From contig NZ_BJDG01000027.1 in assembly GCF_005404945.1 (NCBI RefSeq), positions 1-44,880 of the forward strand: a stretch of 44,880 bases of DNA, in the 5' to 3' direction. Both the position numbers and the translations under genes were made by a program. Position 1 is the first letter of the stretch, and each line of letters begins with the position of its first letter. The stretch is from Lactiplantibacillus pingfangensis (GTDB taxonomy: Bacteria > Bacillota > Bacilli > Lactobacillales > Lactobacillaceae). Below, piece by piece: positions 7,526 through 33,239 of this stretch. The notes beneath the pieces were generated by a model. It worked only from the letters and a program-made list of their open reading frames with translations. It did no database searches and was not told the DNA's origin.

Positions 7526-8902
7526 TTATTTTGTCCAAATCAAAGTAAAGACGCTCCCTTGAGGCTGATTGTCCGTAACTTCAATTTTGGCATGATTCAA
7601 ACTGACTAATTGTTGTACGATTGCTAAGCCTAAACCGCTGCCTCCAACTTCTTGTGAACGTGATTGATCGACACGGTAGAATCGTTGGAAGATGGCTGCT
7701 TTTTGGTCATCTGGGATCCCTTCACCACAGTCAGATACGGCTAATCGGACGTCATGGTCGGTCGCGTGTAAACTCAGCGTGATAGGCTGATCGGCTGGTG
7801 AGTATTTATGGGCATTATCCAGTAAAGCCACCACGATTTGTTGGAGCATCTCGGCATTGCCGTTGACGTGAATATCGGCGTCAATGGCTAATTTGAGTGG
7901 TTGCGATAGTGACGGTTGATAGTGTTCGCCAAGCTGTAATAGCAAAAATGATAAGTCCTGATCGACTAGCGTTAATTTAGCGCGATCCGCGCGTGATAAA
8001 TGGAGTAGATTTTCAATTAAATGTTGCATGCGCAAGGATTCTTCATCAATGAAGTTTAGCGATTCCGGGATCACTTCTGGATGAGCATCGCCACGTCGTC
8101 GAATCAAGCTTAAATTACCACGAATGGCGGCGATTGGCGTCCGAAGTTCATGGGAGGCATCTGAAATAAATTGACGCTCATGTTGCAAGCGTTGATTTTG
8201 GGTGACTAACAAATCATTAAAAGCGTGTCCAAGGTCGTTGATTTCTCTTGGACTGGTTGGCACGGTTAACGTTGGCTGGTCGGCGTCCGGTTGATTGGAC
8301 GTATACTTAGTTTCGTGCAACAGACTGATGGTCGGGGCACTTAAACGCGCCGCTAACCGGTGAGCCCACCAAGTTCCAGCCGCCAGTGTGAGCAATGTCA
8401 CTAAAATCGTGAGACAGATTAAAATTAATAAACTATCTAGTAGCCGACGTAGACTAACCCACAATTGATAAGTGTTTTCGCCGTCTTTTTGCGTATACGC
8501 GAGAAAGAAGCCAAACCCACGGACATGAACTAACGCGCCGACAAAATGAGTTTGTTTTTCGGCAAAGAAGGCTTTTGATGATGGGGAGGTTAAAATCGTT
8601 TGCTTCGTTTTGGTGGCCGTCGTCAAGGTCGCCTTGTCAGTTGTCACCCGGATGAAAGCGGCCTGCTTTGAATCGCGGGTCGTATTATTATTCCACCGAA
8701 TGAAGCTAGGGACGTCTTTAATGTTAGCTTGATGCAAACTAGTCATCAATTCGCGGGCTTCGCGGGAAGTGTTGAGAGTCTGCTGCCCACCAACAATGAT
8801 TAAAATAATGGCACTAATCATGAGCGTGATGGTGAGGACGAGGCGCTTGAAAGCTTGGTTAATTAACTGTTCGTATGTTGGAATTGAGTTACTTTTCGGC
8901 AT
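7526..8902 (-). CDS. Two-component sensor histidine kinase
   Basis: The product has 458 residues. TM1 is at about 19-39, an extracytoplasmic sensor loop follows to about 150, and TM2 is at about 157-177. A HAMP linker runs to about 240. The phosphoacceptor helix is FISDASHELRTPIAAIRGN with H251. The ATPase domain has N-box VALLDNAHKYSP, G1 DCGEGIPD and G2 GSGLGLAIV. It overlaps the upstream response-regulator gene by 14 nt, so the two are translationally coupled. The sensor loop matches no domain I recognise, so the stimulus is unknown. Confidence 0.95.
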   Translation of the reverse strand: MPKSNSIPTYEQLINQAFKRLVLTITLMISAIILIIVGGQQTLNTSREARELMTSLHQANIKDVPSFIRWNNNTTRDSKQAAFIRVTTDKATLTTATKTKQTILTSPSSKAFFAEKQTHFVGALVHVRGFGFFLAYTQKDGENTYQLWVSLRRLLDSLLILICLTILVTLLTLAAGTWWAHRLAARLSAPTISLLHETKYTSNQPDADQPTLTVPTSPREINDLGHAFNDLLVTQNQRLQHERQFISDASHELRTPIAAIRGNLSLIRRRGDAHPEVIPESLNFIDEESLRMQHLIENLLHLSRADRAKLTLVDQDLSFLLLQLGEHYQPSLSQPLKLAIDADIHVNGNAEMLQQIVVALLDNAHKYSPADQPITLSLHATDHDVRLAVSDCGEGIPDDQKAAIFQRFYRVDQSRSQEVGGSGLGLAIVQQLVSLNHAKIEVTDNQPQGSVFTLIWTK

Positions 8903-9593
8903 TCACAATCGACTCCCTTAGTTTGTAGCCGACACCACGAACGGTTTTAATCAGTGGTCCGGCGTTTGGCGAGGCTAATTTACTGCGCAAATAGCCGACG
9001 TAAACATCGACGACGTTTTGTTGCCCGAGGAAATCCGCACCCCAGACTTGATCTAGAAGGTCATCACGCGTGAAAACTTCTTCGGGATGGGCTAAGAAAA
9101 ATTGTAGGAGGTCGTATTCACGATGGGTGAGCTGAACTTCAGCGCCAGCATTCGTCACGCGATGGGCCTTCGTATCCAAGATGATGTCATCGAGTTGATA
9201 GACTTGATTAGGGTCAAGTTGATTTTCAACGCGGCGCTGAATCACCCGAATTCGGGCTAACAATTCTTCGATTTCAAACGGTTTCGTAATGTAATCGTCG
9301 GCGCCGTTATCTAAGCCGGCGACCTTATCGCCGATATAATCGCGAGCAGTCATGATGATGACCGGAACCTGATCGTGCTTGCGAATACGCCGGAGCACTT
9401 CCATACCATCTAATTTTGGTAGCATCCAGTCGAGTAAAATTAAGAGCAACTCATTTTGATGTTCAGCATACATCGTCATCGCCGCGAGGCCATCATTGGC
9501 GACCAGCACGTTGAAATCTTCAAATTGGAGTTCTTTAGTGAGATAGCCAGAAAGACTGAGTTCGTCTTCGACAATCAGAATCGTCTTTTTCAT
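8889..9593 (-). CDS. Two-component response regulator, OmpR/PhoB family
   Basis: The product has 234 residues. The receiver domain has the acidic pair near residues 9-10, phosphoacceptor D55 (LLLDWMLPKLDG) and the conserved lysine in YITKPFEIEEL. A C-terminal winged helix follows (LTHREYDLLQFFLAHPEEVF to VRGVGYKL). The partner kinase follows directly. The gene's own promoter region holds TCACAA direct repeats with an 11-bp period (9647-9663), a typical footprint for this class, so autoregulation is likely. Confidence 0.95.
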   Translation of the reverse strand: MKKTILIVEDELSLSGYLTKELQFEDFNVLVANDGLAAMTMYAEHQNELLLILLDWMLPKLDGMEVLRRIRKHDQVPVIIMTARDYIGDKVAGLDNGADDYITKPFEIEELLARIRVIQRRVENQLDPNQVYQLDDIILDTKAHRVTNAGAEVQLTHREYDLLQFFLAHPEEVFTRDDLLDQVWGADFLGQQNVVDVYVGYLRSKLASPNAGPLIKTVRGVGYKLRESIVNAEK

Positions 9594-29078: not shown

Positions 29079-29172
29079 ATTACAAAGTATTACGAAATCA
29101 GCCGTTTATTACAACGAACCCGATAAAATGTAACGTCCCATTGATACCAGTGCAATATCCACCCGGTATACT
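29079..29172 (+). promoter_or_regulatory. Triple half-site operator and promoter, LysM gene 1
   Basis: ATTACA (29079-29084), ATTACG (29089-29094) and ATTACA (29108-29113) are spaced 10 and 19 bp apart. An opposite-strand unit TGTAAC lies at 29129-29134, and the -10 TATACT at 29167-29172. The last direct unit ends 54 positions before the -10 start, exactly as at the other two LysM genes. The -35 region is non-consensus. Confidence 0.8.
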
Positions 29173-29263
29173 AGATTTTGTTGATTAGTTATGACTGATC
29201 AAGGGAATCATAGATATTTAACCGATAGAAACCAAGCCAAACTAATAGGAGTGTTTTATTTTA

Positions 29264-29854
29264 ATGAAAGTAAAAAATATTGTTTTATCAACTGTTGCCG
29301 CTTTAGGTTTGTTCACCATCGCTACCACGACTGCTAATGCCGATACTGTTACGGTCAAGGCCGGTGACACGGTTGCCAAAATCGCTAGCGAACATCAAAC
29401 AACGATTAACGCCATCGAAAAAGCTAACAACTTGAAGAACGTTAACTTGATCTTTGTTGGTGATCAACTTGAAGTGAATGGTTCGACGACTGCAACCACT
29501 GCAACTAACACAGCTGCAGCTAGCACGACGGCAACAACTAACAATACGACTAGCGAAAACACTGCTTCAACAACTAGTCAAAATACGACCACGACTAGCA
29601 CTGAAACAACCACGTCAACGACAACTAATGATAGTGATAGTGCTGCTAAAGCTTGGATTGCTAATCAAGAATCAGGTGGCTCATACACTGCCACGAATGG
29701 TCAATATATTGGTAAATATCAATTGAGTTCATCATATTTAAATGGTGATTACTCAGCTGCAAACCAAGAAAAGGTTGCTGACAATTATGTCGCTTCCCGT
29801 TATGGTTCATGGAGCGCTGCAAAGGCTCATTGGTTAGCTAATAACTGGTACTAA
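29264..29854 (+). CDS. Secreted LysM protein with C-terminal transglycosylase-like domain (copy 1)
   Basis: The product has 196 residues. The Sec signal peptide ends at about NANA (residue 27). One LysM domain follows (VKAGDTVAKIASEHQTTINA to LIFVGDQLEV), which binds peptidoglycan. A Thr/Ser-rich linker of about 60 residues leads to a C-terminal domain of about 75 residues: AKAWIANQESGGSY, NGQYIGKYQL and AAKAHWLANNWY. The glutamate in QESGG matches the catalytic position of small lysozyme-like or Apf-type domains. It probably trims or binds cell-wall glycan. AGGAGTG precedes the ATG at 29264. It is controlled by the operator at 29079-29172 and has its own terminator. Confidence 0.93.
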   Translation: MKVKNIVLSTVAALGLFTIATTTANADTVTVKAGDTVAKIASEHQTTINAIEKANNLKNVNLIFVGDQLEVNGSTTATTATNTAAASTTATTNNTTSENTASTTSQNTTTTSTETTTSTTTNDSDSAAKAWIANQESGGSYTATNGQYIGKYQLSSSYLNGDYSAANQEKVADNYVASRYGSWSAAKAHWLANNWY

Positions 29855-29872
29855 AATTTAGATGATTAATGC

Positions 29873-29906
29873 AAGAGTCTGGGACTAAAATTCCAGACTC
29901 TTTTTG
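29873..29906 (+). terminator. Terminator of LysM gene 1
   Basis: AGAGTCTGG pairs with CCAGACTCT, followed by TTTTG. Confidence 0.88.
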
Positions 29907-29932
29907 TAACTCCGAATAGTTATAGCCGAAAC

Positions 29933-30043
29933 GTGGAACAAGAGGCATGGATGCAACAGAGCTACGGAAACCGAACGATTGGAAAGTCCCCAATCACTCG
30001 GCTTCCTAGGCGATGCTCAGTAACAACCCGCCGCTTGTCTCAC
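29933..30043. repeat. Structured intergenic element with nested stems
   Basis: The outer arms GTGGAACAAGAGGC (29933-29946) and GCCGCTTGTCTCAC (30030-30043) enclose a long inner hairpin. Its arms are 29962-29982 and 29989-30008, with core pairs CCGA..GATTGG and CCAATC..TCGG. No copy of it is seen elsewhere in the window. It resembles the A/B repeat modules in design but not in sequence. Confidence 0.5.
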
Positions 30044-30173
30044 TCTTTTGTAATCGTGATGAGGGCAAGTCGCAACCAAGATTGCTCGTGGTAGTTGCGG
30101 GATGCACTTGTGTTTTACTGGTGTCCGCATCGTGAAGATGATATGCTTTTGAAAAATAAGGGAGTGAGTCCGC

Positions 30174-30515
30174 ATGGCAATTCAATTTAAAACGGTGTTG
30201 GTCAGACTACGACGTGACCGACAACTATCACAGGCGCAGTTGGCAGAACAATTGTATGTTTCACGACAGGCAATTTCGAAATGGGAACAAGGTGAAAACA
30301 CACCAGATTTGGAAACCTTGGTGAAGCTAGCTGCCCTTTTCGAAGTTAGTTTAGACGAGTTAGTCTTAGGGGAGCAAGGTGCTGAAACTGCCACAACCCA
30401 ATCGCCAGCGTCAAGGACTCGAGCGATGAACGGCTGGGAATTCTTAAGTCGTTATTGGTGGTTAGTTTTTGGCTTGCTTGGGATGATTGGTTGGTTGATT
30501 TCAGTCACTAGATAA
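30174..30515 (+). CDS. XRE-family helix-turn-helix protein with C-terminal membrane helix
   Basis: The product has 113 residues. An N-terminal Cro/CI-type domain (about 5-65) has SQAQLAEQLYVSRQAISKWE, DLETLVKLAALFEVSLDELV. A short linker leads to one C-terminal membrane helix (YWWLVFGLLGMIGWLI). Membrane-anchored XRE regulators of this shape are common in lactobacilli. The ATG at 30174 follows GGGAGTG. It is monocistronic, with a terminator at 30552. Target genes are unknown; the broken membrane gene downstream is in the same direction but separated by the terminator. Confidence 0.9.
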   Translation: MAIQFKTVLVRLRRDRQLSQAQLAEQLYVSRQAISKWEQGENTPDLETLVKLAALFEVSLDELVLGEQGAETATTQSPASRTRAMNGWEFLSRYWWLVFGLLGMIGWLISVTR

Positions 30516-30551
30516 TATTAGGAATGCTGTTGTTAGTGACAATACGGGTTA

Positions 30552-30598
30552 AAAGCATCGCTACTGAACGTTAAAAAAGGTAGCGATGTTTTTTTGCT
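30552..30598 (+). terminator. Terminator of the XRE gene
   Basis: AGCATCGCTAC pairs with GTAGCGATGT around a long loop, followed by seven Ts. Confidence 0.8.
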
Positions 30599-30713
30599 GT
30601 GGCCCAAAAAAAATCCGTCATACAGTGATATACTAATAATCAATTATTATTAAACTGTTTTAATCAGTCAAGATAAGGTTTGACTAGGGTGATGAGCCAG
30701 AAAGGATTAACAA

Positions 30714-31217
30714 ATGCAATTAATTTTAAGCGTGATTATGTGGGGCCTATTGTTGTGGCTCGTTATCGAAATTCGAATGATTAGCTTACGTCATTTATCA
30801 TGGTTACAACTTCAATCGACAGATCACTCAGCTTTAAAAGCACATCGTGTACGCCGCTATTTCTTATTTGAACCAAGTAAACATCACGCGACTTGGACAC
30901 GGCAACTCATGTTTTGTTGTATGGGCCTAACTGTGGTGGGATTGGGTGGTACGATTGTGGCGACGTGGGTGACGCACGCTTTTTTTGGTTATCTCATTGG
31001 GTAGCTGATTTTCTTTATTGGCTATGCTGGTTGGTTGCGGCAGTATCAACGACTATTAACGGCTGCGGTGACATACTGGCAAAAGCATGATCCGGTGTCA
31101 TTTACATTGCAGTTAAGCGCGACGACACTGCCAGAATTGAGGCGTCAGTTTAACAAACTGAAAATTCTAGGCGTTTTGTTATTGATTGCGATGATTGCGC
31201 TAGTTTTAGCGCCATGA
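30714..31217 (+). pseudogene. Membrane protein gene interrupted by an in-frame amber codon
   Basis: One continuous frame of 167 codons is broken only by TAG at 31002-31004. Before it are 96 residues with two membrane helices, ending ATWVTHAFFGYLIG. After it, in the same frame, are LIFFIGYAGWLRQYQ, a soluble stretch, and a C-terminal helix (LGVLLLIAMIALVLA). The helix around FGYLIG-x-LIFFIGYAGW reads naturally across the stop, which suggests a TGG or CAG codon mutated to TAG. AAAGGA precedes the ATG at 30714. The intact protein would have about four helices; the family is not recognised. A shortened functional product cannot be excluded. Confidence 0.7.
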
Positions 31218-31256
31218 CCGATTTATTTCCCCATTTAGTCACTAGCCGTAGCGACA

Positions 31257-31291
31257 AAATAAAAAAGCACCGCCTAAGCGATGCTTTTAAG
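31257..31291 (-). terminator. Terminator of LysM gene 2
   Basis: On the minus strand AAGCATCGC pairs with GCGGTGCTT, followed by TTTTATT. Confidence 0.8.
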
Positions 31292-31307
31292 GAATAACTG
31301 ATTTAGT

Positions 31308-32048
31308 TTAGTACCAGCCAGTAGCTTGTGAATGTGCTTTGGCTGCGGCCCATGAACCATAACGAGCTGAAACATAGCTATCAGCAACTTTTTCTTGGTT
31401 AGCAGCTGAGTAATCACCGTTCAAGTATGATGAGCTTAATTGATATTTACCAACATATTGACCGTTGGTAACAGTGTATGAACCACCAGATTCACGACCG
31501 GCAATCCAGGCTTTGGCGTCATTTTCGCTTGAACTGTTATTGCTAGTGTAAGTTACAGTAGTTGCTGGTTTAGCAGCGGCAGTAGTCGTCGTTTGCTTTG
31601 GTGCAACGTATGATGAGCTGTTGTTTGAGCTAGCAACAGTTGCTTTAGGTGCTGCGGCAACTGAGTTAGTGTTAGCCGATTCAGTCGTTGTTTGCTTTGG
31701 TGCAACGTATGATGAGCTGTTGCTTGAGCTAGTAACAGTTGCTTTAGGTGCTGCGGCAACTGTTGTGTTAGTAGTAGTTGTGGTTGCAACTGGTGAGCTT
31801 ACAACGGGTGTTGATGCAACGGCAGTGTTGCCGCCGACTTCAAGTTAGTCACCAACGAAAATCAAGTTAACGTTTGATAAGTTGTTCGCATCGCGAATGG
31901 CGTTAACAGTTGTGTTATAAGTGTTAGCAATTTCAGCAACGGTGTCGCCAGCTTTAACGGTAACAGTAGCGGCGTCAGCAGCAGTTGTTGTAACAGCGAA
32001 TAAAGCTAAGGCTGCAGCAGATGATAAGACAAGATTTTTGATTTTCAT
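31308..32048 (-). pseudogene. Secreted LysM/transglycosylase-like gene (copy 2) with a premature ochre codon
   Basis: The frame from ATG 32048 to TAA 31308 is continuous except for TAA at 31845-31847. That position is CAA (Gln) in both paralogues (VGDQLEV and VGQQLEV). Before it lie the signal peptide and a complete LysM domain; after it lie a long linker and the C-terminal domain (RESGGSY, NGQYVGKYQL, SARYGSWAAAKAH). The expected intact protein is about 246 residues. As it stands only a secreted LysM of 67 residues would be made. The linker has a 99-bp tandem repeat. Promoter and operator are intact, so the lesion is probably recent. Confidence 0.85.
31586..31783 (-). repeat. 99-bp tandem duplication in the linker of LysM gene 2
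   Basis: Two copies with a period of exactly 99 bp (33 codons) encode the motif VAAAPKATV..SSS-YVAPKQTTT twice. The in-frame length change would lengthen or shorten the linker without breaking the frame. Confidence 0.85.
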
Positions 32049-32156
32049 AGTGTGTATGCACTCTCCTATAATTGGGTGTTCTGTTTAATTATCTAAAGTT
32101 TTTTCGATTCTGTAGTTAGCGGCAACTAATGCCGCCGTAACTAATTAACAATGACT

Positions 32157-32250
32157 AGTATACCGAGCGAGTGTTGCAACACAATAAACAGGAGGTTACG
32201 TTTTTACCCCAATATTGTAATATAAGTCGATTTTTGTAATGATTTGTAAT
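32157..32250 (-). promoter_or_regulatory. Triple half-site operator and promoter, LysM gene 2
   Basis: In plus-strand terms TGTAAT lies at 32216-32221, 32235-32240 and 32245-32250 (spacing 19 and 10). GTTACG is at 32195-32200, and AGTATA (minus-strand TATACT) at 32157-32162. Offsets are identical to LysM gene 1. Confidence 0.8.
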
Positions 32251-32356
32251 ATTTGGTGCTTATTTTGGGGTAAAACTGTGATAAAACCGTGAATTTGAGT
32301 AAAATTAGCTAGCTAAGCAGCGAAAGCAAGTGATTAAACAATTATCGAAATAACCT

Positions 32357-32398
32357 GAATTTTAGTTTAATTAAGGATTAACTGACTAACTAAAATTC
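32357..32398. other. 11-bp perfect inverted repeat in gene-free DNA
   Basis: GAATTTTAGTT (32357-32367) and AACTAAAATTC (32388-32398) lie between the operator of LysM gene 2 and the terminator of LysM gene 3. No T tract or gene is associated. The role is unknown. Confidence 0.4.
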
Positions 32399-32442
32399 GT
32401 TAAAGCCATTAACTTTTAGTTATAGTCCCTGAACTTTGGCGA

Positions 32443-32476
32443 AAAAAAGCAACCTGCCAATTTAGCAAGTTGCTTG
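32443..32476 (-). terminator. Terminator of LysM gene 3
   Basis: On the minus strand AAGCAACTTGC pairs with GCAGGTTGCTT, followed by a run of Ts. Confidence 0.85.
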
Positions 32477-32496
32477 AAAATAAGTTGTGTTTTAGT

Positions 32497-33069
32497 TTAG
32501 TACCAGTTGTTAGCCAACCAATGTGCTTTAGCATTTGACCATGAACCATAACGTGAAGCGACATAGTTGTCAGCCACGCGTTCTTGGTTAGCTGCTGAGT
32601 AGTCGCCGCCAAGATATGAAGCACTTAATTGATATTTACCAACATATTGGCCGTTGGTTGCTGAGTATGAGCCACCAGATTCTTTGTTGGCAATCCAAGC
32701 TTTAGCGTCACTATCTGAACTGTTGTTACTATAGTTAGAAGTGGTCGTTGAAGTTTGTGCCTGAGCAACTGGTGCACTTTGGGTAGTTTGGCTTGATTGC
32801 GTTGTCGTCGTGCTGGTTGCTTGAGTCGTGGTTGTTGCTGAACTAGCATTGCCATTGACTTCAAGTTGTTGACCAACAAAGATCAAGTTAACATTGTTTA
32901 ATTGGTTAGCCTTTTCAATGGCTGAAATAGTTGTGTTGTTTTGTTGGGCAATCGCTGAAACCGTGTCCCCAGCTTTAACCGTAACAGTGGCTGCATGTGC
33001 AGTTGCACCAATTGCAAAAAGACTAGAAGCGGCTGCTGCAGTAGATAATAAAACGTTCTTCATTTTCAT
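32497..33069 (-). CDS. Secreted LysM protein with C-terminal transglycosylase-like domain (copy 3)
   Basis: The product has 190 residues with the same architecture as 29264-29854. A signal peptide ends at about AHA. The LysM runs from VKAGDTVSAIAQQNNTTISA to LIFVGQQLEV. A Thr/Gln/Ser linker follows, then the C-terminal domain AKAWIANKESGGSY ... NAKAHWLANNWY with the conserved ESGG glutamate. The start is MKMKNVL (33069), with GGGAGTG upstream. It lies head-to-tail with the broken copy 2 and inverted relative to copy 1, so the locus grew by duplication and inversion. It has its own operator and terminator. Confidence 0.93.
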   Translation of the reverse strand: MKMKNVLLSTAAAASSLFAIGATAHAATVTVKAGDTVSAIAQQNNTTISAIEKANQLNNVNLIFVGQQLEVNGNASSATTTTQATSTTTTQSSQTTQSAPVAQAQTSTTTSNYSNNSSDSDAKAWIANKESGGSYSATNGQYVGKYQLSASYLGGDYSAANQERVADNYVASRYGSWSNAKAHWLANNWY

Positions 33070-33145
33070 AAGTAATGTACACTCCCTATTTTTTGTCCGA
33101 ATGGCTTGGTCCCATATCTCATTCCAAGCACCTTAACTAAGCAAT

Positions 33146-33239
33146 AGTATAGCCGTTGATTGTAACAAACGAATAGCAGTTGCTTTACGAAATGACTGTC
33201 AGTTTGTAACATAAGCGGCTTTTTGTAATCTTTTGTAAT
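33146..33239 (-). promoter_or_regulatory. Triple half-site operator and promoter, LysM gene 3
   Basis: In plus-strand terms TGTAAC lies at 33205-33210, with TGTAAT at 33224-33229 and 33234-33239 (spacing 19 and 10). TTTACG is at 33184-33189, and AGTATA (minus-strand TATACT) at 33146-33151. The same offsets occur as at the two other LysM genes. Confidence 0.8.

Follow-up and report, generated by a model that had tools for sequence, protein, structure and literature searches.

A conserved hexamer array upstream of Apf-type LysM genes in Lactiplantibacillus pingfangensis suggests promoters dependent on a response regulator, possibly WalR

The window analyzed here is the whole 44,880-nucleotide (nt) stretch of contig NZ_BJDG01000027.1 from Lactiplantibacillus pingfangensis (assembly GCF_005404945.1). 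It carries three LysM genes (A, B, and C), each preceded by a promoter block of short hexamers that ends in the -10 element TATACT (Table 1). A first-pass annotation of this DNA had located the three blocks, and we confirmed every coordinate to the base. It had also described the genes as LysM/transglycosylase-like. A LysM domain was indeed found in A and C, but the products belong to the aggregation-promoting factor (Apf) family, NCBIfam NF052398, and gene B is broken. Genes A and C (245 and 230 bits) and two further genes of this genome, C3 and C43 (240 and 199 bits), all scored above the NF052398 cut-off of 170 bits, and A and C also exceeded the cut-off for the C-terminal domain, NF052397. 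The nearest Apf relatives among the matches listed were from Lactiplantibacillus. Gene B has one TAA in its N-terminal half, within a tblastn match at 31704-32048; its promoter block is intact, and B-like genes free of the premature stop are present in other genomes (L271 and L272). Adjoining gene B, at 30714-31215, a frame of 96 amino acids (aa) stops at a TAG and coding-looking sequence continues in frame (by eye); this is perhaps a second broken gene.

Table 1. Coordinates of the promoter blocks, genes, and other features (positions in the window unless another locus is named)
Feature	Position	Strand	Details
Block A, whole	29079-29172	+	
Promoter A distal cluster D1-D3	29079..29113	+	ATTACA 29079, ATTACG 29089, ATTACA 29108 (-88, -78, -59)
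Promoter A proximal series P1-P3	29129..29156	+	TGTAAC (29129), ATTGAT, TGCAAT; 11-bp period
Promoter A -10	29167..29172	+	TATACT
Block B, whole	32250-32157	-	
Promoter B distal cluster D1-D3	32216..32250	-	ATTACA, ATTACA, ATTACA
Promoter B proximal series P1-P3	32173..32200	-	CGTAAC, GTTTAT, TGCAAC
Promoter B -10	32157..32162	-	TATACT
Block C, whole	33239-33146	-	
Promoter C distal cluster D1-D3	33205..33239	-	ATTACA, ATTACA, GTTACA
Promoter C proximal series P1-P3	33162..33189	-	CGTAAA, TGCTAT, TGTTAC
Promoter C -10	33146..33151	-	TATACT
Gene A	29264..29854	+	196 aa, one LysM and Apf C-terminal domain
Gene B	31311..32048	-	Apf paralogue between A and C; in-frame TAA 31845-31847
Gene C	32497..33069	-	190 aa, one LysM and Apf C-terminal domain
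OmpR-type response regulator of two-component system	8889-9593	-	about 20 kb from Apf genes
Histidine kinase of two-component system	7526-8902	-	about 20 kb from Apf genes
RNA-like locus	L210:1210-1530, G000:C6:44530-44850	-	TGTWAH series, TATACT, terminator-like hairpin (by eye)

Each block has the same layout, with offsets of the boxes (-88 to -16) counted from TATACT. Three direct hexamers stand at spacings of 10 and 19 base pairs (bp) in A, B, and C alike, as the first-pass annotation had reported; they form a distal cluster oriented opposite to a proximal series. That annotation had added a fourth, inverted hexamer. This hexamer exists, but because an 11-bp series occupies -38, -27, and -16, it is the outermost (-38) unit of that series and not a lone site. 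A count of four sites per block was too low: at least six hexamers are positioned in each, with the -27 and -16 units previously unlisted. Similarly, the claim of a period of 10 rather than 11 is true of the distal pair but limited to it, because the inverted hexamer is the first unit of a proximal series with an 11-bp period. The proposed form NGTAAY fits the fourth site of A and B but not that of C, which reads CGTAAA. In addition, many Apf promoters of several genera carry a TGTTGA-like motif about 12 nt 3' of TATACT (e.g., 29179-29186 in the window); it lies near the probable start of the 5' leader and is a possible leader element.

The distal arrangement is not a product of chance. We searched for the pattern RTTAC-N5-RTTAC-N14-RTTACA, with the reversed pattern as a control, and found 3 matches in the window compared to 0 in 100 dinucleotide shuffles. 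A scan of the whole genome for hexamers at these spacings, as the first-pass annotation had suggested, yielded five matches with up to 1 mismatch allowed, all of them exact, versus 1 control match. These five lie upstream of all five Apf-type LysM genes found by protein search (the three in the window, C3, and C43), and two further LysM genes of this genome (C11 and C7) do not have the pattern. Across 251 Lactobacillaceae genomes there were 58 matches in 24 genomes versus 2 control matches, and every one of the 11 genomes of the genus in this set carried 2 to 6 copies. Among 28 matched loci that we opened (L105 to L132), 26 had the pattern upstream of a LysM gene of this family, one of which (L130) has a differing C-terminal end; the other two, L105 and L126, are apparent chance matches. 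Simpler markers were rejected: the distal pair RTTACR-N4-RTTACR gave 7 matches versus 11 for its control, and GTAAY-N(29-35)-TATACT by itself gave 17 versus 28, with only the excess at N32 (6/17) being informative.

For the proximal series, we aligned promoters on TATACT. From 80 loci, we excluded 16 from outside the Lactobacillaceae; 4 of the remaining 64 (L028, L052, L060, and L083) had no start codon, leaving 60 upstream regions, although some chosen start codons fall inside the gene (e.g., L056, L067, and L072). TATA[AC]T was present in 37 of the 60, and the other 23 were analyzed separately. The 36 Apf promoters with TATACT and enough upstream sequence, 5 of them from this genome, were not selected on the -38, -27, or -16 positions. 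Their best matches to TGTWAH were at -16 (5.42 of 6), -38 (5.14), and -27 (4.50), whereas the highest profile value in 200 shuffles was 3.31; these shuffles were mononucleotide and ignore kinship, which draws of one promoter per genus address in part. The -38/-27/-16 triple ranked first of 1,120 combinations of position and period (15.06 versus 11.39), and it came first in 200 of 200 such draws (4 genera). At least 5 of the 6 TGTWAH letters were found at -38 in 35, at -27 in 21, and at -16 in 35 of the 36 promoters. In this series the period is 11 bp, and the last unit ends 10 bp 5' of the -10. The forward orientation fit better than the reverse-strand consensus at -38 (35 versus 16) and at -27 (21 versus 2). 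The position relative to the -10 is nearly rigid: among 45 strict, distinct promoters, the offset of the -10 from the first box was +88 in 27, +87 in 15, and +89 in 2, and one promoter lacked TATACT. The 1-bp slack sits between the third box and GTAA, which is fixed at -37 (14/17 Lactiplantibacillus rows and 17/20 other rows). The -35 regions had been called poor, and we agree: the best TTGACA match averaged about 2.8 of 6, versus 2.6 in shuffles, leaving no clear -35.

The array extends beyond the genus, with variation in its distal part. Placement of some relatives in a genus rests on protein likeness. The 10/19 distal cluster was found in Lactiplantibacillus, Liquorilactobacillus, and some Ligilactobacillus-like genomes, with a 10/20 spacing in one Ligilactobacillus variant (L041) and 11/19 in another (L036); an L. 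plantarum-like gene has a 10/8 spacing, about one helical turn shorter (by eye). In Loigolactobacillus, the -38 and -16 units are retained, and the distal cluster is incomplete. In the 23 regions without TATA[AC]T, TGTWAH (at least 5 of 6)-N10-TANNNT occurred in 17, compared to 9 or fewer for other spacers. Clear N10 cases came from Levilactobacillus, Limosilactobacillus, Paucilactobacillus, Pediococcus, and Secundilactobacillus; three Apilactobacillus rows are near identical and apparently unspecific. Genes like lp_3014/lp_3015 have related but diverged promoters. A LysM gene with a complete block is also present on plasmid pST-III (L289), between IS30 and IS110 transposase genes, and its 3' part and the following sequence match 117 plasmid records, 110 of them typed as mobilizable. 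Near-identical copies of this gene occur in Levilactobacillus koreensis and another genus (L074 and L127), which may be explained by plasmid carriage. One block-bearing LysM gene of another genome (L278), with a differing C-terminal end, scored 56 bits, under the NF052398 cut-off.

We then combined the proximal elements into a core pattern, GTAA-N18-GYMAY-N10-TATAMT, which gave 92 matches versus 1 control match in 21 genomes of the genus. Its five matches in the L. pingfangensis genome are four Apf promoters and an RNA-like locus on C6. We opened 30 matched loci: 19 lie upstream of LysM genes (three with a differing C-terminal end), 1 is an Apf-type promoter for which no frame was found, 5 belong to a second promoter family, and 2 are a third promoter of the same layout with no frame. 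The last three (L256, L264, and L266) have TATAAT, precede genes of other kinds, and were not considered further.

The second family is represented by the C6 locus, where TATACT follows the second TGTAAY box by 38 bp. We found this locus by DNA similarity in 12 of the 21 genomes; 8 of the 12 matched solely through a core of about 40 to 54 bases distant from the promoter. All 12 have YGTAAY-N5-YGTAAY-N32-TATACT, which is the Apf promoter layout plus a unit at -49. Because the rows were chosen by this pattern, scores at -49 and -38 are conditional, and the exact TGTWAH-N5-TGTWAH pair in 12 of 12 is partly due to selection; the -27 unit, which was not selected, scored 5.5 of 6. In L232, such a promoter precedes an intact gene for a 143-aa protein whose start looks like a signal peptide and whose end resembles the RNA-like locus sequence; this protein had no Pfam match. 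The other eleven loci share no long frame of constant length, but several have a short frame starting MG(R/W)(I/V)HD with differing ends. A search of L210, the window, and L218 against Rfam returned 0 matches at the gathering threshold. The second family is not homologous to the Apf promoters and has the same layout.

These comparisons bear on whether the blocks are alike merely through recent duplication of gene and promoter, with the spacing read by no common regulator. Aside from the chance matches L105 and L126, the 28 opened distal-pattern loci all precede one LysM family, as duplication would predict. However, pairwise identity among the 36 promoters was 70% in the -38/-27/-16 columns versus 41% in the columns between, and thus descent alone explains the array poorly. 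For four of the promoters in this genome, the values were 81% (all boxes) and 48%, a contrast that is inflated because about half of the box columns had been fixed in advance by the search pattern and by anchoring on TATACT. Box positions are also retained in other genera, the distal spacers differ by 1 bp or by about one helical turn, and a nonhomologous promoter shares the layout. We consider the duplication explanation improbable.

The array is therefore a real, conserved promoter architecture, which in this genome is dedicated to Apf genes plus a single RNA-like locus. The first-pass annotation had predicted one OmpR-type activator for these wall-protein genes, and the sites, their spacings, their conservation, and the weak -35 favor this as the best reading. 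From these features, together with the specificity across the genome, the finding that walR is encoded, and the recurrence of the layout at an unrelated promoter, we infer the binding of a regulator, the direction of its effect, its mechanism, and its identity. The regulator probably belongs to the response-regulator class. We give roughly even weight to the more specific proposal that the blocks are activator-dependent promoters with a response regulator, most likely WalR, in place of the -35. Each block would then be a sigma-A promoter dependent on a PhoB/OmpR-type response regulator. Regulator monomers in a row on the proximal TGTWAH-like hexamers at -38, -27, and -16 would occupy the -35 place and recruit RNA polymerase. 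The distal group at -88, -78, and -59, in opposite orientation and on roughly the same helix face, would bind more regulator and aid its loading. If the regulator is WalR (YycF), the likeliest choice, Apf-type LysM wall proteins would obey the WalK/WalR wall-growth signal.

Naming WalR is tentative and falls somewhat short of an even call, but it is the leading candidate. The genome encodes WalR (L282; NF040534, 439.4 bits, cut-off 340), whose DNA-binding domain aligns closely with the YycF/VicR domain structures 2d1v and 2hwv. The published WalR/VicR consensus is TGTWAH-N5-TGTWAH, and at yocH of B. subtilis WalR binding was lost on adding one base to the spacer, whereas VicR of S. mutans is described as more tolerant of spacer changes (PMC4168254). 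Wall enzymes are the theme of the WalR regulon (PMC9210968). The coexpression of lp_0302, lp_0304, lp_2845, lp_3014, and lp_3050 in L. plantarum (PMC10886434) is a further point in favor of the proposed promoter type. In the literature covered, we found no WalR regulon for lactobacilli, and no paper joining Apf and WalR among the matches listed; in a regulon reconstruction for lactic acid bacteria, the main text does not name WalR, YycF, or VicR (PMC3616900).

A possible alternative, which we rate as doubtful, is that the same architecture and mechanism serve another OmpR/PhoB-type regulator: PhoP, L285 (C13), or the two-component system of the window, whose regulator is OmpR type. Nine OmpR-type DNA-binding domains are encoded in this genome. 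We checked for upstream boxes at the 5 of 9 loci where the regulator frame was found (two being the same gene), with L281, L286, and L288 left out and the window regulator (L283) checked by its neighborhood only. The gene for the window regulator had no TGTAAY/RTTACR box in the adjoining 207 nt. The core of the Escherichia coli PHO box, CTGTCAT (PMC4415409), resembles TGTCAC/TGTTAC at -16. However, TGTWAH with an 11-bp period is the consensus published for WalR, and wall enzymes fit the WalR theme.

Several observations weigh against a WalR-dependent promoter. No exact TGTWAH-N5-TGTWAH pair and no exact -27 unit occurred in the 36 Apf promoters; because of the 0/36 exact pairs, and with WalR binding putative, we do not file the Apf promoters as members of the WalR regulon. 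The -16 unit is near palindromic (TGTNACA) and fits the reverse strand in 29 of 36 promoters versus 35 forward, and its orientation is thus ambiguous. The distal pair is spaced by 10 bp in the window, not by 11 as in the single Ligilactobacillus locus L036. The core pattern misses promoter C because its unit is TGTTAC. With exact hexamers, the N10 peak in the 23 separate regions is only 7 versus 6 and 5. Some Apf-like genes of an L. plantarum-like genome (G243), which we matched provisionally to lp_ numbers by gene order, have other promoters. For the second family, selection covered the -49/-38 pair, and the -16 unit is weak, its 4.0 of 6 equaling the shuffled maximum. Exact 11-bp TGTAAY pairs in this genome lie outside the Apf genes, before rpoB, the C6 RNA-like locus, and a serine hydrolase. 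Autoregulation of walR was rejected, as no RTTACR/YGTAAY box was present within 330 nt upstream. In contrast, the L285 regulator gene has TGTAAC and, at the Apf offset, GTAAT-N32-TATACT upstream (promoter C13:3744-3786), making L285 a possible autoregulated rival of WalR, although its promoter has no recognizable -27 or -16 units (by eye). Finally, Apf-like genes are altered without a single response in a tagF1-2 (teichoic-acid) mutant, in which lp_2845 and lp_3050 were up and lp_0304 was down (PMC3511166), a result that also suits another regulator. Separately, we noted that the rpoB pair (L206) is directly upstream of the gene and that the L218 pair is upstream of a serine hydrolase that resembles class C beta-lactamases; other genomes of this genus carry the same letters.

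Fur and LexA boxes are palindromes, whereas the conserved sites described here are hexamers with an 11-bp period; no search for Fur or LexA boxes was made. In published expression data from L. plantarum, iModulon IM-1 groups lp_0302, lp_0304, lp_2845, lp_3014, and lp_3050 with lp_2809 and lp_2810 and assigns lp_0302/lp_0304 to Fur and lp_2809/lp_2810 to LexA on the basis of gene locations and a correlation network (PMC10886434). Its authors present these interactions as predicted and unconfirmed, and control of the Apf promoters by Fur and LexA seems to us very improbable. Related genes respond to other conditions. At pH 5, lp_0302, lp_0304, lp_3014, the muropeptidase gene lp_3421, and lp_3050 (not significantly) were up (PMC7645587). 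According to the text of a review, p-coumaric acid lowers lp_0302, lp_3014, lp_3015, and lp_3421, although its table marks them "+ -" (PMC8772861). The names MltA, MltB, and MltC have been used for lp_0302, lp_3014, and lp_3015 (PMC3533731).

A fuller version of the WalR proposal would have WalR as a PhoB-like -35 substitute at a compact Apf regulon in Lactobacillaceae, with the distal, opposite-facing cluster forming a higher-order, phase-dependent complex, and with a regulon that includes an RNA outliving a decayed exoprotein gene whose promoter and terminator were kept. As a whole, we hold this version to be rather unlikely. Apf-type proteins concern cell shape and aggregation and are relevant to surface display in strains used in food or as probiotics. 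With its fixed offsets and its specificity within the genome, the site array offers a direct test of a regulator's mode of activation, and it provides an alternative explanation for part of an iModulon labeled Fur/LexA.

Among known systems, IM-1 of L. plantarum is similar in that extracellular transglycosylase/Apf-like genes are coexpressed; it differs in its Fur/LexA label, in that the block is not present in all its members, and in that this site layout is not described in the parts of that report covered here (PMC10886434). The WalR/VicR (YycF) promoters of Bacillus, Staphylococcus, and Streptococcus share 11-bp-period TGTWAH-like hexamers and targets of wall-enzyme type, and walR is present here. 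However, the Apf units are degenerate, with binding here predicted, and three to four units stand directly 5' of the -10 together with a distal opposite cluster at 10 and 19 bp. PhoB promoters have an 11-bp repeat at a 10-bp distance from the -10, and PhoB replaces the -35. The Apf promoters resemble these PHO-box promoters in their apparently direct repeats near the -10, the lack of a good -35, and a CTGTCAT-like unit, whereas the regulator and the signal differ and the distal cluster belongs to the arrangement described here.

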